Source of the DNA: Candidatus Nitrospira allomarina
Lineage (GTDB): Bacteria; Nitrospirota; Nitrospiria; Nitrospirales; UBA8639
Length of the DNA: 64,000 nt
Reading direction: 5' to 3'
Assembly (NCBI RefSeq): GCF_032050975.1
Contig: NZ_CP116967.1
Coordinates: 682,001 to 746,000, forward strand
Shown here: positions 37,139 to 42,155 of the stretch, piece after piece
Layout: the number at the start of each line of letters is the position of its first letter
How positions within the stretch are numbered: the first letter of the stretch is position 1
The notes under the pieces: generated by a model
The model's database searches: none
What the model was told of the DNA's origin: nothing
What the model saw: the letters and a program-made list of their open reading frames with translations, nothing else
Program-made: the position numbers and the translations under genes

Positions 37139-38590
37139 TTACATGGGACAAGCATGTTGGACTGACCCACCCGCATTAACACCAGCCATTTTAAAAATGA
37201 GCGCAAGGAGCAGGTTATCTTTGAGCAATTCCCGGGTTATATGACACCGTTCCGTGTATCCTGCCGAAGCCGGGTCGCCGGTCGAGGAGGCACTCTTGGC
37301 ATAGCAGTCTCCTGCACAATTATATTTTGCGATACACCCCTGGCACTTCGGCATGTCATGAACATTAAGTTTCCCTAAACGATCAATCGCTTCATGATCC
37401 AGAACGAATTCACCATCCTTCTGATTCCACGCTCCATATTGGAACAACCTGGATCGAGGATCCGTAGGTTGAAGAACTTCGTTACATGAAGTCACAATTC
37501 CACGCGAGGTGACCAGGAAGTTGCTCGCATCACTGGCACCACAAAAAGTCTCCCGGTGCTTCAGAGAAGCCGCTGAATAGTGCAGTTGAATACCAAATCC
37601 GGCAGCCACTTGTCTTGCGGTGCGGAAGTTCTCAACGAATATCTGCCCATCAAGATGTCCAATCTGGTCCTTCAGGTTTGTCACTTTTGTGGCATCGAAC
37701 ACCGGTTCGAAGTGGAGACTTTTGCATTGGAGGTTCTCCCCGACAAACGCAACAAATTCCGACAATGTCGAACTCCCTGCGACTGTCACCGTCGATCGGA
37801 TATCGTAGGTCCTCCCACGCATCTCAAGCCCCTTCATGATGGCAATAATTCGATCGAACGAACCCCCGCCATTCGGCAGGACCCGATGCTCATCATGCAC
37901 TTCTCGCACACCGTCCAAGGAAAAGGTCAGATGAGTGCAGTTCACTGCAATGTAATCCAGCCGGGATTGGGCAAACACACCATTCGTGCTCAACGATACG
38001 GAGGGCTTGAAATGATGGACCCTGCACTGTTCTTTGTAGTATTCAATAATTTCCCGAAATATACCCCAACTAGCCGTGGCTTCCCCTTCTCCTAAAAACC
38101 TGATGGACGGATCCACATTTTGCACGTGTGCATTCTGAACAATTAAATCAATTGCCCCTTTCGCTATGGGCAAGGGTATATCTAGATCTTCCAGCCTCCC
38201 ACCTTCCGCATAACAATACGTGCACCGCAAGGTGCACTTCTGAGTGTTGGAGAAGGTCGCGCTGGTTGGGGCCCATCGTGTGCTGGGCTTGACCAGGGAC
38301 CGCTGTGGCGTCTCGGGAATCTTGAACACGTTGCGTTTGACGAGGCCATCGATCAGAGATTGCTCATTTGGTAGGAGCGTCTCATGACGAAAATATTTTC
38401 TGACGGTCGAAGCGCCAAATTCGTCCAGAATCATGCTGAAATTTGAAAGGGGACTGTAAAACAAGTATCCGTTGAGAAATGAAACAAGAAAGATATCTCC
38501 TGCTCCTTCTATTCGCTCTTCAATGAAGTTCTCTGAAGGATGACTGCGACTGTTGCTACGTTTCTGCGGCATAAGTAAGGTTGTTGGCAT
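37139..38590 (-). CDS. Radical SAM/SPASM enzyme, probable peptide maturase
   Basis: 483 residues. The N-terminal ~100 residues (FLNGYLFYSPLSNFSMILDE) look like the small peptide-recognition region common in RiPP maturases. The radical SAM cluster motif is CTLRCTYC (Cys119, Cys123, Cys126), with FLGEGEAT and LSTNG. A canonical SPASM domain is readable: Cys350-x13-Gly-x4-Cys369, then Cys416-x2-Cys419-x5-Cys425-x3-Cys429, then Cys449, enough for two auxiliary 4Fe-4S clusters. It lies 21 bases after the Cys-Ser-Cys repeat peptide gene with AAAAGGAG before ATG 38590. Likely reaction is a thioether or other crosslink on that peptide; the exact chemistry is unknown. Confidence 0.92.
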   Translation of the reverse strand: MPTTLLMPQKRSNSRSHPSENFIEERIEGAGDIFLVSFLNGYLFYSPLSNFSMILDEFGASTVRKYFRHETLLPNEQSLIDGLVKRNVFKIPETPQRSLVKPSTRWAPTSATFSNTQKCTLRCTYCYAEGGRLEDLDIPLPIAKGAIDLIVQNAHVQNVDPSIRFLGEGEATASWGIFREIIEYYKEQCRVHHFKPSVSLSTNGVFAQSRLDYIAVNCTHLTFSLDGVREVHDEHRVLPNGGGSFDRIIAIMKGLEMRGRTYDIRSTVTVAGSSTLSEFVAFVGENLQCKSLHFEPVFDATKVTNLKDQIGHLDGQIFVENFRTARQVAAGFGIQLHYSAASLKHRETFCGASDASNFLVTSRGIVTSCNEVLQPTDPRSRLFQYGAWNQKDGEFVLDHEAIDRLGKLNVHDMPKCQGCIAKYNCAGDCYAKSASSTGDPASAGYTERCHITRELLKDNLLLALIFKMAGVNAGGSVQHACPM

Positions 38591-38611
38591 AGGAGACTCT
38601 CCTTTTAGACA

Positions 38612-38980
38612 TTAGGATTTTTTCTTGTCCGTGGAGCGAGTCGGAAGCCTGGACGAATTCATTTTTGTACGGATTTCGTCCACAATAGACAGGAAATCTT
38701 CTATGCTCTTGAGTTTTTTGATATCCATTCCTGCCACAACTTCACGAAAAATTGGATTGGACACCACCTCAAGAATATCTGTTTTAACCGGCTTCAATTG
38801 ACAGGAACAGCCAGGCCCCGGCTTATCTTCGCATGAACAGCCAGGAGGCTTGTCCTGACAGGAACAGCCGGGTCCCGGCTTGCCTTCACATGAACAGTAT
38901 AGGGGACCATGATTTACGAGGACGTCAGCAAGAGCAATGATACCGAGGGGATCAATGGCACGAACCGGTTTATCAGGCAT
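38612..38980 (-). CDS. Cys-Ser-Cys repeat peptide, candidate RiPP precursor
   Basis: 122 residues. After 28 residues come four CSC motifs (Cys 29/31, 39/41, 48/50, 58/60) separated by EGKPGPG, QDKPPG and EDKPGPG. This is two tandem units of about 19 residues, also visible as a ~57-bp DNA repeat at ~38805-38900. There are no other Cys. The C-terminal ~60 residues are helical and charged (DILEVVSNPIFREVVAGMDI; IEDFLSIVDEIRTKM), which would place the recognition part after the core rather than before it, or on both sides. The gene is immediately upstream of a radical SAM/SPASM gene. A metal-binding role for the eight Cys is the main alternative. GGGGG precedes the ATG. Confidence 0.8.
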   Translation of the reverse strand: MPDKPVRAIDPLGIIALADVLVNHGPLYCSCEGKPGPGCSCQDKPPGCSCEDKPGPGCSCQLKPVKTDILEVVSNPIFREVVAGMDIKKLKSIEDFLSIVDEIRTKMNSSRLPTRSTDKKKS

Positions 38981-39326
38981 ACATACCCCCTATTGAAAAC
39001 AGATGGAACCCCTGTTTCAGGTTAATGGCTATTGCTCATTACCCATGTGGTAATTTTTCAATGCGCCATTCTAAAGTACGGACATAAATTGTCAATGAAA
39101 ATAATGACCCCGTTTTCCACAGACATCCGACGTCCTGATGTATAGAGAATCAACACCTTGTCATGGGGGATTCACTTATTTCGTGGTTGGGGAGATTGAT
39201 ATTCGCGAGGCCGTGATGTCATCAAGGCAACTGTTATAGAGACTTCCTGGCTGAACGGACTAGACAGCTTCTTGCGTTTGAAGGGCAGCACAAACGGAAC
39301 ACTTTCCGACTGCTCAGGCTATCTAT
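38981..39326. other. Upstream region of the peptide-maturase operon
   Basis: 346 bases between the peptide gene start and the end of the GAF-sensor gene, both on the minus strand. It should contain the operon promoter; no gene, repeat or clear terminator was recognised. Confidence 0.45.
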
Positions 39327-40448: not shown

Positions 40449-42155
40449 CTAGAGTTCAAGCACTCGTGGCTTCAGGGGAGATTCGCCCGACACAAACTCT
40501 TCCTCCAGGCATCGCACGCAATCGAAAATATCACCAAAAATATGATGTTCCGGAATGAGTCTTGGCGTCAGATTCACCGCGCGGAGCATCTCCAGAGGCT
40601 GTGGATTCACGTTGGCCAACAGGACTCGAATACCCCGCTTTTGCATGTATTCAAAAACTAATTCCAGAGCATGAGCGGCTGATTGGTCGAGATACGGCAC
40701 ACGATTCATCTCAAAAATAAGAATTTTGACTGCGGGTAACTGTTTAATATTATCGATTAAAAAATGAGAAAAGCCGAAGAAAACCGGACCGGTAAATGTT
40801 TTGATATACACGGTATCTAAATAATCCTGTGGTAAAACGAATTCTTCCCTCAGGTCGCAGGGTTTTCGGATTTTTAGCGACCGAAGGGGAAACAGGACAA
40901 TTTTTTCTTCTCCGATGTCCCCCATTTTTTTCATGAACACAAAGACTGAGAGGGTCATCCCTGCTCCGACGGCTGTGATCAAATCGACAAATACAGTCAG
41001 GAACAACACGATGAAGAGGATGGCGCTTTCAGCCCGGTCCACTTTCACCACTTCCTTGAGGCCCTTATAGTCGATAATGTCCAAACCGACAGTTATGAGT
41101 ATGGCCGCCAGAACGGGAATGGGCACGTATTGAACATAGGTACCCAAGCCTAACAACACAGCCAGCAGAAAAAGACTGGAAACAACCCCGGCGAGCCGTG
41201 TACGACCTCCAGCCTTCACATTGACAATCGACGACATGGTCGTTCCCGCACCGGGTAATCCACCAAAGAGTGCCGATGCCACATTGCCCATACCCTGACC
41301 AATTAATTCCCGATTACTCTGATGCTTGGTTTCGGTAATTTTGTCGACAATGACTGCAGTCAAGAGGGTGTCAATGCATCCCAAGGCTCCAAGGGTCAAT
41401 GCGGCGGTGATGATAAAGGACGGTCGAGATACGTCCACATTTAATAAACGTTCAAGTTGTAAGGAAGGCAAGCCCTGGGACACCTCCCCAATTAGAGGAA
41501 CAGACAAACCGGTCGCCAGTGCGAGGAAGGTTCCAAACAACAAGGCCATTAGTGCAGCCGGAATTGTGGTACTGACCTTAGGGGCCGCATACAGAATCAC
41601 CAGGGTCACCCCCCCCAGCGCCAGCGCGTGTATATTCATGTCACGAAAAGCCTGCGCCCCCCCGGTGAACACTCCATAGATGGTGGAGGGAGCCGACAAG
41701 CCCATTAACGGAAACACTTCAAATAAGATCAGAATAATGCCAATGCCGGTCATAAACCCGGAAAGCACCGGATAGGGAATATATTTGATATTTCCGCCAA
41801 TTTTTATGAGTCCGAAAACGATTTGCACCACACCCGCTAAGATGAATATTCCAATGATCGTCCCCAGGGCCAATTCCAAGCTCCCGGCGAAACTGATGGC
41901 TTGAGAAACAGTCAACGCGGCCACCACCGTCATGGGGCCGGTTGGAGTACTGATGAGCGTGCGCGTGCCGCCAAAAAGAATGGCAATGGCTCCCAGCAGG
42001 ATTGCACAATACAGCCCGGAAACCGCTCCCAGTCCTGATTGAAGGCCAAAGGCCAGTGCCAAGGGTAAGGTCACCACTCCAGCGGTCAAACCGCCGAGAA
42101 CATCTCCCTTGATATGAAGAAAATTATATTGTGATTCCTGCGCGGCGTATGTCAT
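40449..42155 (-). CDS. SulP-family anion permease with STAS domain (BicA-like)
   Basis: 568 residues. Na- or H-coupled import of sulfate or bicarbonate. The membrane domain (~20-400) has the family pattern GDVLGGLTAGVVTLPLALAF, TGPMTVVAALTVSQAI and GGLPGAGTTMSSIVNVKAGG. A cytoplasmic STAS domain (~435-545) ends it (ILIFEMNRVPYLDQSAAHAL). PLALAFG and the short N terminus are closer to BicA-like bicarbonate transporters than to the plant-type sulfate carriers; substrate cannot be decided from sequence. Bicarbonate would suit an autotroph. Confidence 0.88.
   Translation of the reverse strand: MTYAAQESQYNFLHIKGDVLGGLTAGVVTLPLALAFGLQSGLGAVSGLYCAILLGAIAILFGGTRTLISTPTGPMTVVAALTVSQAISFAGSLELALGTIIGIFILAGVVQIVFGLIKIGGNIKYIPYPVLSGFMTGIGIILILFEVFPLMGLSAPSTIYGVFTGGAQAFRDMNIHALALGGVTLVILYAAPKVSTTIPAALMALLFGTFLALATGLSVPLIGEVSQGLPSLQLERLLNVDVSRPSFIITAALTLGALGCIDTLLTAVIVDKITETKHQSNRELIGQGMGNVASALFGGLPGAGTTMSSIVNVKAGGRTRLAGVVSSLFLLAVLLGLGTYVQYVPIPVLAAILITVGLDIIDYKGLKEVVKVDRAESAILFIVLFLTVFVDLITAVGAGMTLSVFVFMKKMGDIGEEKIVLFPLRSLKIRKPCDLREEFVLPQDYLDTVYIKTFTGPVFFGFSHFLIDNIKQLPAVKILIFEMNRVPYLDQSAAHALELVFEYMQKRGIRVLLANVNPQPLEMLRAVNLTPRLIPEHHIFGDIFDCVRCLEEEFVSGESPLKPRVLEL

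Follow-up and report, generated by a model that had tools for sequence, protein, structure and literature searches.

A C-x-C-repeat peptide encoded beside a radical SAM/SPASM enzyme in Nitrospirales: a likely variant of SPASM-dependent peptide and protein modification

The closest described relatives of the gene pair considered here are SPASM enzymes that act on Cys-containing peptides or proteins. In the PapB/PapA ranthipeptides (freyrasin), several motifs per substrate combine Cys with acidic acceptors, and PapB joins the Cys sulfur to the C-beta of Asp or the C-gamma of Glu, tolerating Cys-Xn-Asp with n = 0–6, in line or nested (PMC9413430). QhpD forms three leader-guided Cys-to-Asp/Glu bonds within QhpC, the gamma subunit of quinohemoprotein amine dehydrogenase, so that the thioether bridges lie inside one protein chain rather than in a small peptide (PMC7876137); in its logic, this is the closest analogy to the system described below. 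Further described systems include the SCIFF ranthipeptides (CteB-ScfB) and the CefB (Cys-every-fifth), CcpM, CXXX-repeat and TIGR04463 maturases, which, like the enzyme studied here, are SPASM enzymes beside Cys-repeat peptides. A published account of a CxC peptide paired with a SPASM enzyme was not found in the mostly non-subscription literature searched, and no published RiPP of such a kind was found in the nitrite-oxidisers to which the host lineages belong.

The window, that is, the whole 64,000-nucleotide stretch of contig NZ_CP116967.1 of the marine-type Nitrospirales bacterium Candidatus Nitrospira allomarina that was analysed, contains two adjacent minus-strand ORFs coding for a 122-aa peptide and a 483-aa radical SAM/SPASM protein, with a gap of 21 bases between them (38591–38611; Table 1). 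The earlier note on this DNA had described eight Cys arranged as four CSC motifs at this distance ahead of the enzyme, and the ORFs confirm that description. Of the window's 247 ORFs that reach 60 aa or more, the peptide's alone has two or more CxC[DENQ] motifs, so the pattern is not due to chance. The source genome carries a single copy of each gene. Across the neighbourhoods of the genera examined, no third gene, protease or transporter linked to the pair was common to different genera, which agrees with the earlier statement that neither a protease nor a transporter gene adjoins it. The adjoining SulP transporter, GAF gene and lytic transglycosylase are kept with the cassette among close relatives only. 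The SulP-family gene (40449–42155) lies upstream of the GAF-domain gene, has BicA as its top NCBIfam match, below cutoff, and is not kept with the cassette outside the genus. A recent mobile origin of the cassette was also considered: the best plasmid relatives listed are only 24–31% identical, and hence no recent transfer is seen.

Table 1. Features of the peptide–enzyme locus, in window coordinates
Feature	Position	Strand	Basis
Sigma-70-like promoter (predicted), TTGACA-16-TAGAAT	39095-39068	-	11/12 matches; block kept in close relatives
Putative precursor/substrate peptide, 122 aa, 8 Cys (four CSC)	38612..38980	-	ORF; 9 homologues aligned; purifying selection
Conserved N-terminal part, residues 1-28 (MPDKPVRAIDPLGIIALADVL...)	38897..38980	-	invariant residues; helix 11-23
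Cys core, residues 29-64, CSCEGKPGPGCSCQDKPPGCSCEDKPGPGCSCQLKP, four C-x-C-[E/Q]-x-K hexads	38789..38896	-	motif counts; model
57-nt tandem duplication in core	38790..38897 (copies 38790-38840, 38847-38897)	-	82% identical copies
C-terminal follower, residues 65-122, helical (NPxFREVV...SIEDFLxIxDEIRxKM)	38615..38788	-	invariant residues; predicted helices
Putative radical SAM/SPASM maturase, 483 aa	37139..38590	-	ORF; PF04055; CteB 5wgg match; 9 orthologues
N-terminal domain (~residues 24-91), RRE-like in element order	38318..38521	-	AF2 secondary structure
Radical SAM cluster motif CxxxCxxC (C119, C123, C126)	38213..38236	-	sequence; invariant in orthologue alignments
SPASM region CX13GX4C...CX2CX5CX3C...C (C350-C449)	37244..37543	-	sequence; all seven Cys invariant

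The enzyme matches PF04055 (radical SAM) at 35.3 bits, above the gathering score. Its C119, C123 and C126, together with the SPASM Cys 350, 369, 416, 419, 425, 429 and 449, are invariant in 10 orthologues, and the same ten Cys are invariant in a set of 8 enzymes with identities down to 26%, which bears out the earlier reading of a complete SPASM set. G364 is also invariant, and the seven-Cys pattern CX9-15GX4C-CX2CX5CX3C-C is present in full. CteB was the top PDB sequence match (5wgg, 7e-21) and the best solved-structure match (5wgg/5why) by both sequence and fold. The AF2 model of the enzyme is poor (mean pLDDT 52.5) and for this reason served only the fold ranking and the order of elements in the N-terminal segment. 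There, three strands are followed by two helices (E34-38, E41-46, E51-55, H57-67, H74-85; local pLDDT ~41–86), an order resembling that of an RRE; the segment had no PqqD match in Pfam and nothing significant in a PDB sequence search.

By the described families' own cutoffs, the enzyme is outside PapB, SCIFF, QhpD, CefB and the other modelled families, and it scores below cutoff for each of the NCBIfam maturase models listed. Its top matches are the PapB (NF047865, 120.5 bits against a cutoff of 340) and SCIFF (TIGR03974, 105.4 against 425) maturases, followed by QhpD (TIGR03906, 83 against 453), CefB (73 against 600), CcpM (68 against 500), CXXX-repeat (66 against 350) and TIGR04463 (42 against 525). 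The substrates differ as well. In contrast to the CX3D/E repeats of PapB precursors, which are absent here, the motif is CxC[E/Q/D]xK, with Gln or Asn also at the presumed acceptor position and a conserved follower after the core; the Cys spacing likewise differs from that of the CefB, CcpM, CXXX-repeat and TIGR04463 systems. Unlike QhpD, the enzyme has no qhp genes nearby. No named family, SCIFF and PapB included, was matched above cutoff, in keeping with the earlier note's view that the arrangement is unlike SCIFF/ranthipeptide precursors. The precursor itself matched no NCBIfam family, and Pfam gave no relevant match.

The enzyme or a close orthologue (65–93% identity) occurs in 10 of 236 Nitrospirales genomes including that of the window, spanning four genera and two families, and in 10/10 a peptide homologue is located directly upstream, nine of them intact and one frameshifted. 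Among 396 Nitrospirota genomes, convincing peptide homologues occur only in enzyme-carrying genomes, with the weak phylum-level matches (E > 1e-4) left out as likely composition matches. Homologues of the peptide lacking a radical SAM neighbour, which the earlier note had said would speak against its proposal, were thus sought in both the order and the phylum, and no convincing case was seen. We regard the enzyme–substrate pairing as strongly supported. Two genomes carry two precursor paralogues (122 and 116 aa) ahead of one enzyme; the window carries only the first of these types. Two irregular copies may be mentioned: in Dino_bin26 the precursor (L021:7620-7979) is frameshifted after the N-terminal part, perhaps through a sequencing or assembly error (~4x coverage, from the contig name), and in NPIRA06 a second precursor copy (L019:481-759) has decayed, with a single CTCESKP unit and a portion of the follower left.

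An alignment of the ten peptides showed two conserved ends, the N-terminal MPDKPVRAIDPLGIIALADVL and the C-terminal DILEVVSNPxFREVVxGxDIxKLKSIEDFLxIxDEIRxKM, with R7, D10, P11, G13, A16, A18, V20 and L21 invariant in the former and N75, P76, F78, R79, E80, V82, D86, D95, F96, E102, I103 and R104 in the latter. The Cys core enclosed by these ends is variable: its length and spacing differ, as does the number of Cys (7–10 per peptide). As the ends are conserved and only the core varies, this is the anatomy of a RiPP, and the Cys block indeed takes the place of the core that the earlier note had assigned to it. The AlphaFold model of the peptide, of modest confidence (mean pLDDT 61), has helices at 11-23, 69-73, 76-84 and 93-110 and a low-confidence, largely unstructured core; the long helical part noted earlier after the Cys block therefore corresponds to the follower, with predicted helices within 69-110. 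A PDB search with this model gave no significant match. The peptide gene is under purifying selection, which is strong in the core within the genus: across five close genomes, every pair has 0 nonsynonymous against 2–9 synonymous core substitutions, and the whole-gene dN/dS is mostly 0.05–0.12, with a maximum of 0.18. Read from sequence, the two genes form a precursor–maturase pair, with a conserved putative recognition part and a variable core beside the maturase in all ten genomes; the enzyme belongs to the SPASM enzymes, and its substrate is of RiPP type.

We placed the enzyme in a maximum-likelihood tree of 39 enzymes. There it groups with 16 others in a supported clade (97/91), and 14 of these 17 enzymes have an adjacent CxC substrate, whereas CteB, QhpD-like and GoxB-like enzymes form a separate supported clade (99/98). 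Of the three members without such a neighbour, one is a planctomycete enzyme (G925a), whose genome has a CxC tail on another contig, and the other two come from Salmonella and Edwardsiella plasmids, where they adjoin a short peptide with CC. None of 21 control loci, comprising these three and other SPASM enzymes, had an ORF with two CxC[DENQ]. Judged by their neighbours, the relatives at L022–L024 look GoxB-like and those at L025–L030 QhpD-like, and these have no CxC partner. Five changes suffice to explain the CxC label on the tree, and 0/500 shuffles were as low, a result driven by close copies in the tree. Some caution is due: long branches are numerous in the tree, and the enzymes of Methylocystis and planctomycete G1080 lie outside the clade without a firm placement. 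In addition, CxC-partnered enzymes contributed to the profile with which relatives were sought.

Enzyme relatives from plasmids and other phyla are ~25–31% identical, and several adjoin CxC sequences on unrelated scaffolds. The CxC-tail systems of two Nitrospirota genomes (G301 and G176), Candidatus Chlorohelix and planctomycete G925 share with the window's pair the same clade and CxC[D/N/Q] repeats. They differ in having as substrate an exported Tat protein, of WD40 or other type, that carries a C-terminal tail, and their enzymes are only ~26–31% identical to that of the window. G301 has a Tat-signal WD40 protein ending in ...ICTCDCICTCQAV next to the enzyme relative, while G176 codes for two Tat WD40 proteins, and Chlorohelix for two Tat proteins, whose tails are PCGSPIPPGAVCTCNCVPG or closely similar to it. 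In two groups, a profile of the tail was found in 1/150 and 1/149 genomes, exactly the two with a clade enzyme (G176 and G925). Other relatives adjoin a Tat-type peptide (...ADCSCNKESGCACVGHERCVC) in Caballeronia NK8 and a 107-aa CxC peptide in a planctomycete. The Tat signals were read from RR-x-F/L-L motifs in the sequence, and a prediction model saw only one of them, just below cutoff; the window's peptide has no Tat or other signal sequence. The distant CxC substrates tested against NCBIfam matched no relevant family.

Comparison of the cores pointed to a motif code. The earlier note had described two tandem units of ~19 residues, and these do reflect a true DNA duplication of two 51-nt copies lying 57 nt apart (Table 1). 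This duplication is, however, specific to the window's lineage, and the real repeat unit, judging from the aligned motifs, is the hexad C-x-C-[E/Q/D]-x-K, which is common to all cores and is clearest in one homologue (L047) as CSCELK CVCDGK CSCELK CVCDLK. The 25 CxC of seven different cores have, without exception, E (16), Q (4), D (4) or N (1) as the next residue, against a background of 22.5% (p = 6e-17, indicative only, as related motifs are treated as independent), and Lys follows two positions later, at +3, in 21/25. In seven distant substrates, E/Q/D/N follows 24 of 35 CxC, and the Lys is not conserved; as Asx/Glx is retained where Lys is lost, the common acceptor is more likely the Asx/Glx side chain than Lys. 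This acceptor position is CX2 from the first Cys of the CxC. The window's core has eight Cys and four motif acceptors, two of them Gln, so that not every Cys could be linked via these acceptors.

Most likely, the pair is a variant of SPASM-dependent RiPP or protein modification, probably with thioethers from CxC Cys to the following Asp/Glu/Asn/Gln. We put at slightly better than even the chance that peptide and enzyme are a self-contained cassette for repeated core modification, above all by radical thioether formation at C-x-C-[E/Q/D/N]. The enzyme would grip the peptide by its conserved ends, through the N-terminal helix and/or the helical follower, and modify the unstructured core repeatedly, with one or more events for each unit. 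A deoxyadenosyl radical would abstract H from the side-chain carbon adjoining the carbonyl of the Glx/Asx after CxC, which is C-beta in Asp/Asn and C-gamma in Glu/Gln. The radical carbon would then be bonded by a Cys sulfur, perhaps of the first Cys (CX2[E/Q/D/N]), the other Cys being free or also linked; such a bond, from Cys sulfur to a non-alpha carbon, would make the product a ranthipeptide in the chemical sense. The product would be a multiply bridged Cys-rich peptide or protein, still attached to the helical part in the cell or processed by unlinked genes. With no signal sequence and no linked protease or transporter common to genera, the window's product may stay inside the cell; as a guess, it may serve as a metal- or redox-active element. 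For the distant substrates, the Tat signals are consistent with a protein that is first modified in the reducing cytoplasm and then exported in folded form. In favour of this reading, most clade enzymes adjoin CxC substrates, and the 21 other loci have no such ORF. Against it, adjacency of enzyme and peptide is not proof of modification, CxC is a classic metal-binding motif that needs no enzyme, the core has more Cys than motif acceptors, and among characterised enzymes of this kind we are aware of none with Gln or Asn as acceptor.

A different SPASM reaction on the core is unlikely, yet deserves weight. Alpha-carbon thioethers of the sactipeptide type, Cys-Lys or carbon-carbon links, epimerisation or group removal are reactions of a kind that SPASM enzymes catalyse in known families; the conserved Lys at +3 in the window's lineage would suit some such role, and Gln/Asn alternate with Glu/Asp after CxC. 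Nevertheless, the top profile matches, none of which reaches its cutoff, are to enzymes that make thioethers (PapB, SCIFF and QhpD), and it is Asx/Glx rather than Lys that the distant relatives keep. We consider it improbable that the peptide is a metallothionein-like metal binder, with the enzyme acting elsewhere or only tuning it. CxC clusters are typical of metallothioneins, and the copper metallothionein MymT is the only NCBIfam match of the peptides, but that match is not significant (E = 0.37, 2/10 peptides), the enzyme adjoins the peptide gene in every genome found, enzyme and CxC are retained together in distant relatives although the scaffolds there are unrelated, and to our knowledge no metallothionein follows a strict rule of E/Q/D/N after each CxC. 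An equally improbable fate for a modified CxC peptide is that of an exported antimicrobial or signal matured by an unlinked housekeeping protease and transporter: the paralogues with different cores and the decayed NPIRA06 copy look like diversification, but no signal sequence, protease, transporter or immunity gene is common to genera, purifying selection on the core is strong within the genus, and the long conserved follower stays C-terminal to that core.

It is plausible, though only tentatively so, that an undescribed SPASM clade reads C-x-C-[D/E/N/Q] and bridges diverse scaffolds, namely free-standing helical peptides that stay inside the cell (Nitrospirales) and, in Nitrospirota, Chloroflexota, Planctomycetota and Pseudomonadota, the tails of folded proteins exported by Tat, WD40 proteins among them. 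Of the earlier note's proposal of a new RiPP class, it stands that the system is real and probably new; its status as a class is not established, and it reaches wider than one phylum. If the clade does read this code, it would be a general route to protein-anchored bridged Cys sites before export. To SPASM chemistry, the system brings a further substrate family and a substrate code that can be tested. Were the code right, one enzyme clade would mark both peptides and large exported proteins, blurring the line between RiPP natural products and protein cofactor maturation, as with QhpD. Made up of two genes only, the cassette is compact and lends itself easily to expression.

Some further observations concern the surroundings of these genes. 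The promoter block and the stretch after it are conserved in close relatives; the ~87 nt from the promoter to the precursor start codon (38981–39067) are strongly conserved within the genus, and an Rfam search for a structured RNA upstream of the precursor was without match. On a Methylocystis iwaonis plasmid, a 128-aa ORF (L058:4152-4538) with 19 Cys and nine CxC, missing from the gene table, lies beside a radical SAM gene. G176 (L083, C63:48000-67000) and G925 (L081, C448) have in common a cluster of several radical SAM genes that are pairwise related in the tree, and in G176 this cluster adjoins the two CxC-tail WD40 Tat proteins. Finally, on the Salmonella serovar India and Edwardsiella tarda plasmids (L059 and L060), the enzyme relative accompanies a peptide of 57–59 aa with FEFLCCRGG and a Gly-rich end, together with ABC transporter and S8 peptidase genes, and looks to be part of a separate RiPP cluster.
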